A stretch of DNA of 34,684 nt, from assembly GCA_019038695.1 (NCBI GenBank), contig JAHOYZ010000049.1, positions 1-34,684 of the forward strand, given 5' to 3'. Under the pieces are notes generated by a model. The model was given only the letters and a program-made list of their open reading frames with translations. It was not told the DNA's origin and did no database searches. Both the position numbers and the translations under genes were made by a program. Source of the stretch: Candidatus Zixiibacteriota bacterium. Lineage in GTDB: Bacteria > Zixibacteria > MSB-5A5 > GN15 > FEB-12. Shown in pieces: positions 16,539 through 24,249 of this stretch; within the stretch, counting starts at the first letter, position 1; the number at the start of each line of letters is the position of its first letter.

Positions 16539-16553
16539 CCACAGGAGGTGATC

Positions 16554-18056
16554 GTGTTTGCGAGATACCTCAATTTTGTACGGGGTGTAGCGACTAATTG
16601 GTGGGGACGCTTAGGCGTCATTCTCACCACCTCTTCATTCTTGTGCATGATGGTAATGGAACTGGCCCGTCTGGTTGGCCTGGTCACCAGTTCTTATGCC
16701 GGTCTGGTCAGCTATATGCTATTCCCGTCCCTGTTTGTTCTGGGATTACTGCTGATTCCGATCGGTTGGTGGATGCTCAAGAAACAGACTGGCAAATCGA
16801 GCAAGGAACTGATAGAAACTGAATTCGGAAAGGAGTGCGCCGCCCTTTCATTCGGAGGTGCGCGTCTGTTTCGAACGATCTCGATTCTGACTATCGTCAA
16901 CATTGTTTTTCTGTTGATTGTCAGTACACGCATGCTCGCTTATATGGATACCGCAGAGTTCTGTGGCAAGGCCTGTCATAGCGTGATGAACCCTGAGTGG
17001 GTTAGTTATCAACAATCTCCACATGCCAGAGTGGCCTGCATTGAATGCCATGTTGGAGAAGGTGCAGGATCGCTAATTGACAGCAAACTCAATGGCCTCT
17101 GGCAGGTGGTGTCGGTGACTTTTGACTTATTGGAACGGCCGATTCCTACACCCGTGCACCAACTTCGTCCAGCTCGAGAAACCTGTGAGAAATGTCACTG
17201 GCCGGATAAGTTCTATGGCCAGCGGCTAAAGACAATTACACGCTATGGTCATGACTCAGTTTCGACACAGCTCTTTACTACACTGAGTTTGAAAGTCGAT
17301 ATTGGTGCTGCCCATGAACGGAGCGGAATTCACTGGCACATTGCTCAAGAGAATGAGGTGCGCTACGCTTCGGTCAATGACGAGCGTGAGAAGATCATCT
17401 GGACGGAGGTGCGGCAACCCGATGGCAGCTATCATCGTTACACTTCTACCGATGGAGCAGCGGTCGGCATGGATGCCTCTTCAGTTCGCAAAATAGATTG
17501 CGTTGATTGCCACAACCGTGCGACCCATATCTATGAGCTGCCGGACAGGGCAATCGATGAGCGGATCCACAAAGGCATACTGGATCGATCGTTGCCGTTC
17601 CTGAAACGTGAAGCGCTGCGCGCTATCTCCGCCAACTATGCGTCGAGAGAGGCCGCTATGGAAGGAATCTCGAACCATGTGAATGGCTACTATCAGCGCA
17701 ATTATCCTGATCTGGCACGATCAAAGATGACGATTATTGATTCTGTAGTTACAGTTCTGAAAGGCATCTACAATCGTAATATCCACCCAAGTATGAATAT
17801 TGAATGGGGTACCTACCCCAGCCATATCGGCCATGTTGGAGACGGTGGTTGTTTCCGGTGCCACAACTCGAACATGGTTGATGAGGACGGAAACGCTGTC
17901 TCATCTGATTGTGCTCTATGTCATTCTATGTTGTCCAACGGTCATGAGGATGCTTTCCAGTATTTGCGACCGGCAGATACGTCGTCGCTGGATTACCAGA
18001 TGCATCTATACTTGCAGCAGGAGTTCATGCACTCTTCGGAGGCTAGTGGTCTGTAA
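16554..18056 (+). CDS. NapC/NirT-type multihaem cytochrome c, quinol dehydrogenase partner
   Basis: Membrane-anchored cytochrome of about 500 residues. Three hydrophobic segments (about 20-45, 52-72 and 108-126) precede the haem region. The first site is C-x3-CH (CGKACH, about 137-142), the variant seen in long NapC/NirT-family proteins. Five CxxCH sites follow (about 162, 211, 316, 433 and 453), giving six potential haems. The stretch Ser-Pro-His-Ala-Arg-Val, then LRPARETCEKCHWP, is typical of the family. It likely oxidises membrane quinol and feeds the octaheme enzyme encoded 15 bases upstream. The frame opens at a GTG (16548) that is part of the ribosome site AGGAGG (16543-16548); the GTG at 16554 with 5-base spacing is the better start. 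A strong terminator follows the gene. Confidence 0.85.
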   Translation: MFARYLNFVRGVATNWWGRLGVILTTSSFLCMMVMELARLVGLVTSSYAGLVSYMLFPSLFVLGLLLIPIGWWMLKKQTGKSSKELIETEFGKECAALSFGGARLFRTISILTIVNIVFLLIVSTRMLAYMDTAEFCGKACHSVMNPEWVSYQQSPHARVACIECHVGEGAGSLIDSKLNGLWQVVSVTFDLLERPIPTPVHQLRPARETCEKCHWPDKFYGQRLKTITRYGHDSVSTQLFTTLSLKVDIGAAHERSGIHWHIAQENEVRYASVNDEREKIIWTEVRQPDGSYHRYTSTDGAAVGMDASSVRKIDCVDCHNRATHIYELPDRAIDERIHKGILDRSLPFLKREALRAISANYASREAAMEGISNHVNGYYQRNYPDLARSKMTIIDSVVTVLKGIYNRNIHPSMNIEWGTYPSHIGHVGDGGCFRCHNSNMVDEDGNAVSSDCALCHSMLSNGHEDAFQYLRPADTSSLDYQMHLYLQQEFMHSSEASGL

Positions 18057-18103
18057 TCTTATAGCATCCTGCAAGTATTGACAATGCTCAAGAAAAGGAG
18101 AAG

Positions 18104-18137
18104 CGGCTCGAGAGAAATCTCGGGCCGTTTCTTTGTT
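18104..18137 (+). terminator. Rho-independent terminator after the cytochrome pair
   Basis: A 10-bp stem, CGGCTCGAGA (18104-18113) with TCTCGGGCCG (18118-18127) and one G-T wobble, is closed by a GAAA (GNRA) tetraloop and followed by TTTCTTTGTT. It lies 48 bases after the stop at 18056 and separates the cytochrome c pair from cydAB. Confidence 0.88.
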
Positions 18138-18308
18138 GCCCGGGTGGTGTACACCGAGCAAGCCGAAGGAGTGAAAACCAGTTGGCAGCACATACTGTTG
18201 TTTGTGTTAACCGTAACCCTGTACAACATTCCGAAGGGACTAATTCCCGATTCTCAAACCTATGGACACTCATACACCGCCACATGGTGTGTTATAATCG
18301 GGGTTTGT

Positions 18309-18321
18309 TGTCATAATGACA
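18309..18321 (+). promoter_or_regulatory. Palindrome upstream of the cydAB promoter
   Basis: TGTCAT-A-ATGACA is a perfect 6-bp inverted repeat around one base. Its centre is about 80 bases before the inferred cydA start point, a plausible place for an activator or repressor. TTGTC half-sites are loosely Crp/Fnr-like, but the match is weak. Confidence 0.3.
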
Positions 18322-18359
18322 CTTGATGTAGTTCTTGGATAACAGGCGGAACAATGATA

Positions 18360-18388
18360 TTGACAATTTGTTATTGTGTTAATAAAAT
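18360..18388 (+). promoter_or_regulatory. Sigma70-type promoter of cydAB
   Basis: A perfect -35 TTGACA (18360-18365), a 17-base spacer and TAAAAT (18383-18388, one mismatch to TATAAT) give a start near 18395, 23 bases before the cydA ATG, with AGGAG at 18408-18412. The spacer contains the inverted repeat ACAAT-TTGTT-ATTGT (18363-18377), which overlaps the promoter and could be an operator. Confidence 0.75.
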
Positions 18389-18417
18389 ATAGTAGATAGA
18401 TACAAGTAGGAGATTCT

Positions 18418-19758
18418 ATGGATCTTGATCCTGTACTATTGGCACGGTTGCAGTTTGCGCTCACCATCGGATTTCACTTCATCTTTCCACCCATATCGAT
18501 CGGTCTGGCTTGGTTGTTGGTAATCATCGAAGGTTTAGGCTGGAGACGAGGTGACGACACTTACGTGCGAATGGGCAAGTTCTTTGGAAAACTGCTTGCC
18601 CTGACTTTTGTTGTCGGAGTGGCAACCGGTATCGTGATGGAGTTTCAGTTTGGTACTAACTGGGCCGAATACTCCAAGTTCGTCGGTGACATTTTCGGTG
18701 CTCCTTTGGCGGCGGAAGGTATTTTCGCGTTCTTCCTGGAATCTGCTTTCCTTGGCCTGTATCTGTTTGGCCGGAATCGGGTATCGAAGGGCGTACACTG
18801 GTTCTCGATCCTGATGGTAGCGGTCGGTTCCACAATCTCTGCTTTCTGGATTCTAGTGGCCAATTCCTGGCAACAGACTCCCGCGGGTTACATCATTCAG
18901 AACGGTCGTGCGGAACTGACCAGTTTTTCAGAAGCGGTTTTCAACCCGTCAACTATGATTCGCTTCTTCCACACAGTCGATGCCACCCTGATATGCGGAG
19001 CCTTCGTCATGGCCGGTGTGGCAGCATACTTGCTCTTGAGGAATAGGGGGGACCTGGTCGCCCGCAAAGCTCTCAAGTTGTCTCTGATATTTGGATTGGT
19101 AGTGTCCCTGCTGGAGCTCTTTCCGTTCGGCCATGAGCATGCCATTCAGGTTGCCCAGACCCAGCCGGAAAAACTAGCGGCTTTTGAGGGACTGATTGAA
19201 GGACAGACAAATGCTCCAATGGTGATGTTTGGGATACCGTCTGACAATCCACCACAACTGGACGCATCAATTGAGGTCCCCGGCGTATTGAGCTGGTTGG
19301 CTCATGGTGACACGGAGGCCTACGTCAAGGGTTTGAATGATTTTCCACCCGACGAAACGCCACCGTTCTTCATTACCTTTGTGTCGTTTCACAGCATGGT
19401 GGGACTTGGCATGTACTTCATCGGCGTTATGCTACTCGGCGTTTTCCTTCTCTACCGGAAGAAGCTGTGGGATCAGAGGTTGTTCCTCAAACTGTTAGTG
19501 TTCTCAATCCCACTTCCGATCATAGCTATTGAACTAGGCTGGATTGCCGCCGAGGTTGGTCGCCAGCCTTGGGTGGTATATCGCATCATGAAGACGGTCG
19601 ACGCCGTTTCGATAACGGTCACGGCGGGTGAGATTCTGTTTTCCATTATCCTGTTCGGACTGATCTACCTATTTCTGGGTGCTTTGTATCTGTTCTTGTT
19701 TGTGCGTGAGGTCAAACATGGCCCTGAGCCTGAAGTAACGACGGAGGTGTCAGTATGA
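18418..19758 (+). CDS. cydA: Cytochrome bd quinol oxidase subunit I
   Basis: Catalytic subunit of the high-affinity, NO-tolerant terminal oxidase in the inner membrane; it oxidises quinol and reduces O2 to water. Length is 446 residues, the short Q-loop form. Recognisable residues are His 20 in GFHFIFPP (haem b595/d-type ligand region), Glu 100 and Glu 108 in the proton-path helix (AAEGIFAFFLESAF), His 185 in IRFFHTVDA and Met 327 in FHSMVGLGM (haem b558 ligands), and the signature GRQPW (381-385). About nine membrane helices are visible. It has its own promoter and ribosome site and overlaps cydB by four bases. Placement directly after the nitrogen-oxide reduction genes fits a role under microaerobic, NO-exposed conditions. 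Confidence 0.96.
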   Translation: MDLDPVLLARLQFALTIGFHFIFPPISIGLAWLLVIIEGLGWRRGDDTYVRMGKFFGKLLALTFVVGVATGIVMEFQFGTNWAEYSKFVGDIFGAPLAAEGIFAFFLESAFLGLYLFGRNRVSKGVHWFSILMVAVGSTISAFWILVANSWQQTPAGYIIQNGRAELTSFSEAVFNPSTMIRFFHTVDATLICGAFVMAGVAAYLLLRNRGDLVARKALKLSLIFGLVVSLLELFPFGHEHAIQVAQTQPEKLAAFEGLIEGQTNAPMVMFGIPSDNPPQLDASIEVPGVLSWLAHGDTEAYVKGLNDFPPDETPPFFITFVSFHSMVGLGMYFIGVMLLGVFLLYRKKLWDQRLFLKLLVFSIPLPIIAIELGWIAAEVGRQPWVVYRIMKTVDAVSITVTAGEILFSIILFGLIYLFLGALYLFLFVREVKHGPEPEVTTEVSV

Positions 19759-20774
19759 TTGATCTGAATACTACCTGGTTTGCCCTGTTTGCAGTACTTA
19801 TCACGGGATACGCAATCTTGGACGGTTTTGACTTGGGTGTGGGGGTATTGCACCTGTTCGCACGCAACAATACTGAACGTCGCATCAACTTGAACGCGGT
19901 GGGACCGGTGTGGGACGGTAACGAAGTATGGTTGCTGACCGCCGGGGGTGCTCTGTTTGCTGCGTTTCCACCCGTTTACGCGACCATTTTCAGCGGTTTC
20001 TACATAGCCATGATGCTGGTTCTGGCTGCTTTGATTTTCCGCGCCGTTTCGTTTGAGTTTCGTGGCAAGATCGAGTCGCGCGGCTGGCAGCGTCTATGGG
20101 ACTGGTCGTTTGGTCTGGGGAGTTTGCTTCCATCGATACTTTTTGGAGTCGCGGTCGGCAATATTCTCAGGGGCGTGCCCATTGATGGCAATGGCCTCTA
20201 CGTCGGCTCGTTTCTCGAATTGTTGAATCCGTACTCTATCCTGATAGGAGTGCTGAGTCTCGTAATGTTCGTGATGCATGGAGCCTTATATATGACTCTT
20301 AAAACCGATGGCGAACTTCGGGATCGCATGACTCGTTGGGTTTCTGGTTCCTGGATTGCTTTCGTTGTCGTTTATCTATTGTCAACCTTGTACACGATCT
20401 TTGAGGCTCCGCATCTGATGGAGAACATCTTCTCCAAACCTTTGTTCTGGGTGTTCCTGCTGGCACTGCTGGCATCAACGGCCTACCTGCCTGTGGTCCT
20501 GAAGGCTAAGCGTTTTTTCCGAGCCTTTCTATCCTCGTCGGTGTCAATCGCCGCCGCTATCGGTATTGCCGCTGTTAGCCTGTATCCATCGCTTGCGCCG
20601 TCGAGCATTGATGTCGCCTACAGTCTAACCGCCTATAATGCCTCCTCGACGCCCCGGACGCTTACGACAATGTTGGTGATCGCCCTTATCGGGATGCCGA
20701 TTGTAATTCTCTACACAATTTACATTTATAGAGTATTTAAGGGCAAAACAGTAATTACGGAGGAAAGTTATTGA
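19755..20774 (+). CDS. cydB: Cytochrome bd quinol oxidase subunit II
   Basis: Second subunit of cytochrome bd, 339 residues with about eight to nine membrane helices. The N-terminal helix motif ILDGFDLGVG and the following GPVWDGNEVWLLTAGGALFAAFP block (about 50-72) are diagnostic. The final helix and a short cytoplasmic tail complete the family length. The ATG overlaps the cydA stop (ATGA), so the subunits are co-translated. No cydX-like small open frame with a ribosome site follows, and no CydDC assembly transporter is encoded in the window. Confidence 0.96.
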   Translation: MIDLNTTWFALFAVLITGYAILDGFDLGVGVLHLFARNNTERRINLNAVGPVWDGNEVWLLTAGGALFAAFPPVYATIFSGFYIAMMLVLAALIFRAVSFEFRGKIESRGWQRLWDWSFGLGSLLPSILFGVAVGNILRGVPIDGNGLYVGSFLELLNPYSILIGVLSLVMFVMHGALYMTLKTDGELRDRMTRWVSGSWIAFVVVYLLSTLYTIFEAPHLMENIFSKPLFWVFLLALLASTAYLPVVLKAKRFFRAFLSSSVSIAAAIGIAAVSLYPSLAPSSIDVAYSLTAYNASSTPRTLTTMLVIALIGMPIVILYTIYIYRVFKGKTVITEESY

Positions 20775-20955: not shown

Positions 20956-21957
20956 CTATCGCGTCAAAAAATAGATCCGATCATCTATCTCTACACTTGC
21001 AGAGCCATAACACTCAAGTGCCGAGCCATCGGTGTTGAGGGGGAAGACCGAATCGCCATCGGGGCGCAGCACCAGCTTCTCCTTAACGCGAAAACCCTCG
21101 AATCCCCACCTGTCCGGATCTTCGAGCACAGATGCATCCCAAGCATGTTTCAACTGCATCGGGAGTTTGAACACTCCCATATCTCGGATTGCGAACACGT
21201 GGAAATCCCCTGAACCAAGTGGCACACCCTGTGCGAACGGCATATTCGGGCCGAGGTAGCCGTTCACAATCATGATTGCCTGATAATAGCCCTGTGTTAC
21301 GGCTTGACCATCGACCATAATTTCCCATTGTCTCTTACCCCGGCCGATATGTCTGAATATTTTGGAAATTACCGCCAGACTAGTACCAACGAAAAACGGA
21401 CCCAGGTCGCCAAACAACTGACTCAATATCCCTTTGTAGTACTTGATGAAGCGGTTCTCGGTGAAACGGGGGACCTCACCGAACACTTCGGCCCCACCAT
21501 AACCCACGAAATGACGAACATCAGAGTCTCCGTGCTCGCTGGACGCCAGAAGTACGTCACACGGAACGACTTTGTCCTCACGAATGGAATTAACGAAAAC
21601 TTCAATGGCCTCCTCGATTTCGTCCGGCATTCCGAGTACTTTTCCGATCAGATCGGCTGATCCCTTCCGCAGAAATCCAAGCCGCAAACGATTAAAGTCA
21701 CACCGGGCATCGTAGCAACCTTCGACTACGGCGTTGAACGTGCCGGAGCCGCCAGCAGAAATGAGAATCTCGCTACCGTCCTTGACCAGTTCACACGCCT
21801 TCTGTCGTGCATCTGCATGACTATCAACAGAGATAAGATTAACGTTGTCTTCGCCGTGTTCTCTGAAGAGAGGCACAATGCGACCGACTTTACCCCAGTC
21901 GCTAACTGATCCCGAGATCGTCGTCGCAATGACATCAATGCGTTTACTCACTGTCAT
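20956..21957 (-). CDS. Diacylglycerol/lipid kinase family protein
   Basis: Cytoplasmic lipid kinase of 333 residues in the DAGK-catalytic / YegS-like family. The nucleotide-binding signature reads SAGGSGTFNAVVEG (about 67-80) against the usual GGDGT-x-N-E-V-x-N-G; the normally acidic residue is Ser (GGSGT), a notable change at the phosphate-binding loop. A second motif, KGSADLIGK (about 98-106), replaces the common GTANDFA. The C-terminal beta-sandwich with GYLGPNMPFAQGVPLGSGDFHVFAI (split around residues 233-257) is clear. It is the last gene of a coupled three-gene minus operon: its ATG lies 14 bases inside the acyltransferase-kinase gene. Predicted to phosphorylate a diacylglycerol or similar lipid; the substrate is unknown. 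Confidence 0.8.
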   Translation of the reverse strand: MTVSKRIDVIATTISGSVSDWGKVGRIVPLFREHGEDNVNLISVDSHADARQKACELVKDGSEILISAGGSGTFNAVVEGCYDARCDFNRLRLGFLRKGSADLIGKVLGMPDEIEEAIEVFVNSIREDKVVPCDVLLASSEHGDSDVRHFVGYGGAEVFGEVPRFTENRFIKYYKGILSQLFGDLGPFFVGTSLAVISKIFRHIGRGKRQWEIMVDGQAVTQGYYQAIMIVNGYLGPNMPFAQGVPLGSGDFHVFAIRDMGVFKLPMQLKHAWDASVLEDPDRWGFEGFRVKEKLVLRPDGDSVFPLNTDGSALECYGSASVEIDDRIYFLTR

Positions 21958-23392
21958 CAGGCTCCTTGTGTATGGAACTGGAGAGGAAAGAGAGACACTC
22001 GTCCAGAATTTCTTCCCGTGTGTTCGTGCCGTCCACTACGAGCACCGGTACGTTCCATTCATTCTGGATGACACCACACACCAGTCGATAACCATCCCGC
22101 AGCCGACCAAGCTTCTCCTTCGTCTCGTGCACCTGTCTGTCTTCGCCTCGCTTTGTGATCCGCCGACATGCCTCTTCAGGGTCAATATCGATGAATATCG
22201 CAACGCTGGGTATGCTCAGCCGATTCACTCCGATACGTTTCAGTTGCAATAGCTCGGGATAATGATCAAACAACTGGTCGCTGCGAGGTACATTCGTTCC
22301 CTTGCCACTGAGTACGGCAATGGCCTTTGAACACGATTGAGCGTCCATCGTATCGTTTTTGTACAACACAGACCATGCCAGAAGATTTAGGAGCGGGGAA
22401 CCATCCATTGTTACATAAGCAGGTCGATACCATCTCTGGACCTCATTTAGAAGATGATCCCTCAGAAGCAGTTCCGCCAGCTTTGGGATCTTGTATAGCT
22501 TGAGCGATTTGGCTGTCTTTGCATAACCACTGATCTTTCTACGAATCCGTTCGGCCAATAATGGCTGTATGTCCATTGCCCGTCCCTCCACATAGAATTC
22601 AAGCTCATCACTGATGCGACAAACTTTCGTCGAGGCCGACAGATTCTCCGTGACCATTCTCGACATCGTGCTCTTCCCCGAACCATCAATACCAAGAAAG
22701 CCTATACACTTGAGAGCCGTCTGTTGCTGGTTTTCTCTGCAGTGTCTTCGCGCTGCTTCTGATCGCGCGAGTTCCATTAGAACTTCCTGGAGCAGACGAG
22801 TCGTCTCGCGATGTGTACCTCTGCATTTTTGTGCCGGTCCGATTATAACATTGTTCCACAACGGCAGCAATAGCGCACTGGCCTTGGGGAGCGAACGCTC
22901 CGGACCGGTTAGAAACACCGGTACGATAGGAATGTCGGGGTACTGCGTTACAAGCCTCCCGATGCCACTCTTGAACTTCAATAACTCACCCGGTGTCCCG
23001 CGAGTGCCTTCGGGGAAAATGATCAGGTTGTCTCCTGCATCGAGCCGAGCCTTGATATGCCCAAGTGGGTCGGATTTGGACTCCAATTGCCCCCGCGTGA
23101 GCCAGATGGGTCGGAATAGATATTTGATGATCTTGAAAACCAAGCGGTACTTTGAGAAGTACGCTTCATCAGCGATGGCACGAGTGCGCCGAATGTGGCT
23201 GATCGGCAAGATGTAGAATAGCAGCAGGATGTCGAGGTGACTGTTGTGATTGGCAATGATGACATACCTGTCCAGATGCTCCAAGTTCTCGTGCCCACTG
23301 ACATTGACGCCGAATACTATCCGGAGAAACGGACGCAGCAGCATGACATGCCAGAACACACGCCAGAATGATTTCTCAGCCTGACTTTTCAT
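21944..23392 (-). CDS. PlsC-type acyltransferase fused to a thymidylate-kinase-like P-loop kinase
   Basis: Two-domain protein of 482 residues. Residues 1 to about 215 are a lysophosphatidate acyltransferase domain: the H-x4-D catalytic motif (NHNSHLD, His 49 and Asp 54), the Arg-containing middle block, and the acceptor-binding PEGTRG (127-132), plus an amphipathic N-terminal helix. Residues about 226-475 are a P-loop kinase: Walker A GIDGSGKST (234-242), a FIDIDPEEACRRI strand-helix and a lid-like Arg-rich segment as in thymidylate kinases. The DR motif of true dTMP kinases is replaced (Met-Asp-Gly-Ser-Pro), so the substrate is probably different. It overlaps the upstream gene by four bases (ATGA) and the downstream lipid kinase by 14. 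Likely role: acylation plus phosphorylation steps in a specialised lipid pathway (inference). Confidence 0.8.
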   Translation of the reverse strand: MKSQAEKSFWRVFWHVMLLRPFLRIVFGVNVSGHENLEHLDRYVIIANHNSHLDILLLFYILPISHIRRTRAIADEAYFSKYRLVFKIIKYLFRPIWLTRGQLESKSDPLGHIKARLDAGDNLIIFPEGTRGTPGELLKFKSGIGRLVTQYPDIPIVPVFLTGPERSLPKASALLLPLWNNVIIGPAQKCRGTHRETTRLLQEVLMELARSEAARRHCRENQQQTALKCIGFLGIDGSGKSTMSRMVTENLSASTKVCRISDELEFYVEGRAMDIQPLLAERIRRKISGYAKTAKSLKLYKIPKLAELLLRDHLLNEVQRWYRPAYVTMDGSPLLNLLAWSVLYKNDTMDAQSCSKAIAVLSGKGTNVPRSDQLFDHYPELLQLKRIGVNRLSIPSVAIFIDIDPEEACRRITKRGEDRQVHETKEKLGRLRDGYRLVCGVIQNEWNVPVLVVDGTNTREEILDECLSFLSSSIHKEPDDSE

Positions 23393-24249
23393 TTCAGGAA
23401 GTAGTAGATGTAGTGAAAAGTCACCGGGGCGACCAACAAAAGAGCCTTAAGGTTGTTGAGGATTTGGCCCCTTCCAGAAATCAACAAATCTTCCTCGATT
23501 CTCAAGTCTGCCCCAACGAAGTCGCCTGCGCGATGTCCCAGAATGACCAGTACCGGAATCATACATGCCAGTATGACCGAGTGCAGTATCGGTATCTCAG
23601 TCCAGTTGGACAGAATTATGGAGATCGCAACTGTAATTGGCAGGGGAGACAGGAATCTTGCGAGGTAGTTCCCAAAGAGAGTTTTGGTCCTGGGTCCGAC
23701 AAAATGCGATACGGTGTCACACACAAGCACATTGATCACAATCAGCGCCGCCATCCACGTTGAGAATGAGGCCAGGTAGCCGAGATGTCCGAGACAGAAG
23801 ACAAATGCAAATAGGCCAAACTCGATAGCACCGATTGAGAAGACGGTTCCCTGCGTCTCGTTCCCGCCAAGCGTTACCAGCAATGGGATTGCCAGAAAAA
23901 CATACACAGGTATTGATATGATGAACATCCCGTACCAGGAAACCTGTATGAAGTAGATCATGAAAGGAATTGACACATAGGCGCCCAAAATGGCCACTCG
24001 GTCCTGCAGACGAATATCGATCAGCGAGAAATACTCGCGAAGAGCCGAGAAGCAGATGATCGCCAGCACCCAGATTCCTACCTGAAACGATATCAGTTCC
24101 ACTACTGCGAAGCATAGGAAGAACAGCCACGTGTAGCATAAGTAGGAGTCAAATGGGAAGCGTTTATTGACGATTATCTTCACTATGCGATATACGGTCA
24201 GAATCGCACAGATACCTACCAGTACGGTTGTCGAGATAGTCCAAGTCAC
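23389..24249 (-). CDS. CdsA/YnbB-like membrane protein with degenerate catalytic signature
   Basis: Integral membrane protein of about 286 residues with about eight hydrophobic segments, matching the phosphatidate cytidylyltransferase family in length and layout. The Cys-Asp-Thr-x-Ser-His-Phe motif aligns with the Asp-containing motif of CdsA. In the C-terminal signature, the usual S-x-x-K-R, P-G-H-G-G and D-R-x-D-S are replaced by A-D-L-R-I, S-G-R-G-Q and N-N-L-K-A, while the flanking Ile-Leu and Ala-Pro-x-x-Phe-His-Tyr are kept. Both metal-binding Asp residues of true CdsA enzymes therefore appear lost. The frame extends upstream to 24522, but it then crosses a tRNA-Leu fragment; the GTG at 24249 has GGAGG 8 bases upstream and begins directly at the first membrane helix, so it is chosen. 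First gene of the coupled lipid operon. Confidence 0.65.
   Translation of the reverse strand: MTWTISTTVLVGICAILTVYRIVKIIVNKRFPFDSYLCYTWLFFLCFAVVELISFQVGIWVLAIICFSALREYFSLIDIRLQDRVAILGAYVSIPFMIYFIQVSWYGMFIISIPVYVFLAIPLLVTLGGNETQGTVFSIGAIEFGLFAFVFCLGHLGYLASFSTWMAALIVINVLVCDTVSHFVGPRTKTLFGNYLARFLSPLPITVAISIILSNWTEIPILHSVILACMIPVLVILGHRAGDFVGADLRIEEDLLISGRGQILNNLKALLLVAPVTFHYIYYFLK

Follow-up and report, generated by a model that had tools for sequence, protein, structure and literature searches.

What might three genes accomplish together when their products resemble familiar enzymes of phospholipid synthesis but have altered key motifs? The question is raised by an operon on contig C49 (GenBank JAHOYZ010000049.1) of a Zixibacteria metagenome-assembled genome (3.28 Mb, 96% complete); this whole stretch of 34,684 nucleotides is called the window here. 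The first gene of the operon, on the minus strand at 23389 to 24249, encodes a membrane protein of 286 amino acids similar to the cytidine diphosphate (CDP)-diacylglycerol synthase CdsA. It starts with a GTG at 24249, with GGAGG upstream; a longer open reading frame with a TTG start, extending to 24522, was rejected, as the relatives favour the GTG. The second gene (21944 to 23392, minus strand; 482 amino acids) encodes a fusion of a PlsC acyltransferase with a kinase, and its start overlaps the stop of the upstream gene by 4 bases in an ATGA. The third (20956 to 21957, minus strand; 333 amino acids) overlaps the fusion gene by 14 bases and encodes a protein of the diacylglycerol kinase (DAGK) type. 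A preliminary description of this DNA had given these coordinates and overlaps correctly, and its view of the genes as a co-transcribed, specialised and non-housekeeping set is supported by the results below. Promoter and terminator scans gave no signal above chance.

Tentatively, and with a little less than even confidence, we read the operon as an accessory lipid module made of an acyltransferase-kinase core, a non-catalytic membrane partner with the CdsA fold and a lipid-binding partner with the DAGK fold. The PlsC-kinase fusion would be the catalytic core, with its acyltransferase domain acylating a lysolipid or a phosphorylated acceptor and its thymidylate-kinase-fold domain using ATP to phosphorylate an acceptor other than an ordinary nucleotide monophosphate. 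The CdsA-fold protein would make no CDP-diacylglycerol (CDP-DAG) and would instead keep the soluble enzymes at the bilayer, either as an anchor in the membrane or as a partner that presents lipid. The DAGK-fold protein would bind lipid, and may either phosphorylate it by an altered mechanism or have lost catalysis. We infer that the proteins form a complex with the CdsA-fold member as its scaffold, and likewise infer the order of the reactions.

The CdsA-like protein scores just below the cut-off of PF01148 (21.7 against 24 bits), and a profile search of its family against PDB sequences found no match. Its AlphaFold model is confident and all-helical (predicted local distance difference test 88) and has the CdsA fold, the best PDB match being TmCdsA 4q2e (Foldseek probability 1.00, template modelling (TM) score 0.57-0.62, E 0.007). 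The signature of CDP-DAG synthases is KDX5PGHGGX2DRXD, and Asp219 and Asp249 form the metal dyad that is key to catalysis in TmCdsA (review, PMC7018664). Alignment to the genome's own CdsA and to a YnbB-type protein, rather than to TmCdsA itself, found this signature absent from 22 of 22 operon proteins. All of them are without the SPNKT loop, the Asp of GD, KD, PGHGG, and the Arg and second Asp of DRxD, so that both catalytic Asp positions of the dyad (TmCdsA numbering) are changed throughout. At the GD position the proteins have GH, GN, GQ, GR, GA, GE, GC or SA; at DRxD the first Asp appears as D, N, H or E, and the second is replaced in every case, mostly by K, Q or R.

The preliminary description had pointed to NNLKA in place of DRxDS. 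That change is real, being the local form in the window (DNLKS- and DNLQS-type versions are commoner among close relatives), but the description had overlooked two further losses: the SPNKT loop is deleted, and GD no longer has its Asp. The CDP-activation-like membrane chemistry that it ascribed to the operon does not hold up, as the CdsA-like protein is without the residues needed for it at 22 of 22 loci. Because the replacements differ between sequences, they suggest loss at those positions rather than a new active site. Good conservation is seen in the N-terminal half of the protein (REYFSL..R.QDR, SIPFM and WYG.FI.SIPVY), and the ratio of nonsynonymous to synonymous substitution rates (dN/dS) of its gene, 0.15 in one close pair and 0.22 in another, is similar to that of its partners and indicative of purifying selection. 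With the catalytic residues gone from all 22 proteins while the fold and purifying selection are kept, the protein is, judged by its sequence, most likely a pseudo-cytidylyltransferase.

The fusion protein is matched by PF01553 (2e-25) in its PlsC acyltransferase domain (22913 to 23308, minus strand) and by PF02223 (1e-8) in its C-terminal P-loop kinase domain (21968 to 22711, minus strand), which spans residues about 228-475 as delimited by its motifs and the AlphaFold segment 228-474. The motifs NHNSHLD, FPEGTRG and GIDGSGKST are intact in the window protein. Among its relatives, the HX4D of PlsC is present in 22 of 22 sequences and FPEG[TS]RG in 23 of 23 (Ser for Thr in three), while the P-loop GIDGSGKS is found in all 23 and R..RG..Q.HE of the LID region is invariant. 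The fusion thus shares NHxSHxD and FPEGTRG with ordinary PlsC, the 1-acylglycerol-3-phosphate acyltransferase (solved relative, 5kym), and differs from it in that the operon PlsC carries the C-terminal P-loop kinase in every operon relative found.

The kinase domain has thymidylate kinases as its best structural matches (TM scores of about 0.6-0.8 when normalised to the target), matches PF02223 in 23 of 23 members, and shares with that family the P-loop, the C-terminal helices and the fold. It departs from the family in an inserted segment, in its fusion to PlsC and in an Asp-Gly that replaces the Asp-Arg (DR[YF]) nucleotide-monophosphate motif; the genome's own Tmk has DRF. In the window protein the P-loop occupies residues 234-242, the Asp-Gly 330-331 and RG-x3-QVHET 415-424. 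The preliminary description had noticed the Asp-Gly, which proves to be fixed in all 23 sequences. The Arg of the thymidylate kinase motif contacts the substrate phosphate, and the kinase domain is therefore likely to have a different acceptor.

The DAGK-like protein matches PF00781 (1e-10; 41.4 bits against a cut-off of 23.6), as do 21 of 21 members of its family, with the catalytic domain at residues 8-123. It is related to DgkB by profile, and DgkB is its best solved relative. It scores far under every NCBIfam lipid-kinase cut-off, and it differs from DgkB, YegS and BmrU in having GGSGT and further changes at nearby conserved positions. The replacement of GGDGT by GGSGT, correctly seen earlier, occurs in all 23 sequences covering the region. 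In several members of the superfamily the Asp of GGDGT probably takes part in catalysis. NAD kinases, which are related, vary in the final letter of the motif but keep GGDG (PMC8553519). The kinase activity of the DAGK-like protein therefore appears doubtful.

The same motif changes could be taken to mean that all three proteins are active in a new phospholipid-phosphate pathway, in which the altered motifs serve new substrates and the CdsA-fold protein carries out some other transfer. GGSGT and Asp-Gly are each fixed in 23 of 23 sequences rather than drifting, new invariant residues are present in the operon proteins, and the PF01148 superfamily also includes CTP-dependent lipid kinases. However, the residues at the former CdsA catalytic positions are unconserved, a pattern more in keeping with loss than with a new site, and this makes the reading somewhat unlikely. 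Two of the three proteins seem catalytically impaired yet keep their fold and sequence constraint, as might be expected if the operon were a regulatory or sensing module whose CdsA-like and DAGK-like members bind phosphatidate, diacylglycerol or CDP-DAG, steer the acyltransferase-kinase and adjust the membrane under stress. We regard this as unlikely, as the proteins have no regulatory domain and no regulator gene recurs nearby.

A search for the operon in other genomes, proposed in the preliminary description, was made by alignment across a collection of named genomes, with only the DAGK-like family as the query. It found 23 loci, which is a lower bound because the collection scan relies on short patterns. 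They belong to uncultured bacteria of about eight phyla, among groups that comprise Zixibacteria, Electryonea, Hatepunaea, Gemmatimonadota, Bacteroidetes, Acidobacteriota, Aminicenantes, Krumholzibacteria, Desulfobulbaceae and others; the carriers L029 and L030 have records titled as chromosomes, and every carrier genome named here was assembled from metagenomes. A protein-only scan of the named genomes with the window fusion as query gave no match. The order CdsA-like, PlsC-kinase, DAGK-like is kept at all 21 loci (of the 23) whose contigs are long enough, and the remaining two, L031 and L036, end at contig edges. Conservation of this order in 21 further loci, together with dN/dS values of 0.13-0.23 for the operon genes in two close pairs, excludes chance. 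Neighbour clustering around the loci revealed no fourth gene, and no other gene shared beyond pairs of loci. The operon is rare, being present in 5 of 132 genomes of its own phylum and in 3 of 395 genomes of the phylum of L029, and its spread is patchy, since the other listed members of its own family gave no match.

Pairwise distances of the three operon proteins correlate (r 0.79-0.89), in favour of the reading of the operon as an acyltransferase-kinase core with two non-canonical partners, although shared ancestry inflates these values. Other observations weigh against that reading. The CdsA-like protein still has conserved acidic and basic residues (E72, R80, D83, R84 and D248) and could have a new catalytic chemistry instead of none. 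The DAGK-like protein has kept the Asp in its C-terminal DGS, which is DGE in canonical members, and kinase activity is therefore possible.

The operon proteins belong to the same families as the enzymes of housekeeping phospholipid synthesis, and might be taken for those enzymes with an odd look. This reading has next to no probability. The preliminary description had suggested looking for separate canonical copies, and these were found in the same genome: a canonical CdsA beside an uppS-like gene (L001), with SPNKT and PGHGGVLDRFDS; a PlsC beside a cmk-like gene (L002); a Tmk (L004); and another DAGK-family protein (L007), with GGDGT. These copies refute a housekeeping role, which is also contradicted by the absence of the operon from 127 of the 132 genomes of the phylum. 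Of the 20 other operon-bearing genomes, 18 encode a strong CdsA apart from the operon (E no higher than about 1e-48) and 19 at least one further PlsC; the exceptions, G199 and G212 for CdsA and G212 for PlsC, are probably assembly gaps. The genome that contains the window also has, immediately before a panB-like gene, one for a deoxynucleoside-kinase-like protein (L005:1327-1986, G000:C22).

The closest known relative of the operon is the YnbB module, found on an Escherichia coli plasmid (L045), in Bacteroides finegoldii (L047) and at L015, which consists of a CDP-alcohol phosphatidyltransferase, YnbB and a PlsC-like protein. In both systems a gene for a CdsA-fold membrane protein adjoins a PlsC gene, and the operon CdsA-like protein has 26-31% mean identity to YnbB-type proteins, against 19% to the genome's own CdsA, and ends like them in a C-terminal APV-FH. 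The YnbB-type protein of the module is catalytically complete, whereas the operon protein is without the catalytic motifs. Furthermore, the operon has no CDP-alcohol transferase, its PlsC is fused to the kinase, and a DAGK-like gene has been added. The preliminary description had proposed a search for a CDP-alcohol phosphatidyltransferase; none was found on the window contig with PF01066, and four copies are present elsewhere in the genome. In the tree, the CdsA-like proteins of the operon group together in a single clade beside the YnbB-type proteins (support 0.68). The operon PlsC domains form one clade near the YnbB-linked PlsC, whose low support (0.32) means that descent from the latter is only suggested by the sequences. 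The operon may thus have arisen when a YnbB-PlsC pair lost its cytidylyltransferase chemistry, acquired the kinase by fusion and gained the DAGK-like gene.

A fourth match in the phylum of L029 (L051:2-1401, genome G301) turned out to be a YnbB-PlsC pair of the ordinary kind, in which SPNKT and HGGVLDR are intact, rather than the operon, and is a useful outgroup. A third CTP_transf_1 protein (E 4e-38), possibly a catalytic YnbB, is encoded in an operon-bearing chromosome (G207:C1:1512063-1512812).

The patchy distribution across distant phyla would also suit a self-contained anti-phage or mobile-element cassette, and the kinase domain has a weak PADLOC match to VakA (1e-7; window 22019-22225). 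This match is confined to the C-terminal part that matches thymidylate kinases generally, the other two proteins have no PADLOC match, and no defence genes recur alongside the operon. There was no phage match, and plasmids gave unfused PlsC only. The defence, phage and plasmid readings, very improbable on this evidence, were dropped.

Literature searches for a PlsC-thymidylate-kinase fusion or for this gene set found no description. It is possible, if rather doubtful, that the accessory lipid module constitutes an undescribed pathway in which a dead CdsA-fold scaffold, a bifunctional acyltransferase-kinase and a DAGK-fold partner yield a phosphorylated polar lipid without CTP activation. The module is intact across very distant phyla, with a CdsA-fold protein that has kept the fold and lost the chemistry; because this family conserves its N-terminal half best, it provides a naturally occurring test of whether the CdsA fold can have a role other than catalysis. 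Annotation pipelines may label the genes as CDP-DAG synthase, PlsC/thymidylate kinase and diacylglycerol kinase, and at least one of these labels is probably incorrect.

Elsewhere in the window, at 16548-20774, a multihaem cytochrome c-like protein is followed by a cytochrome bd oxidase-like pair, recognised by eye; these genes are convergent with the lipid operon.
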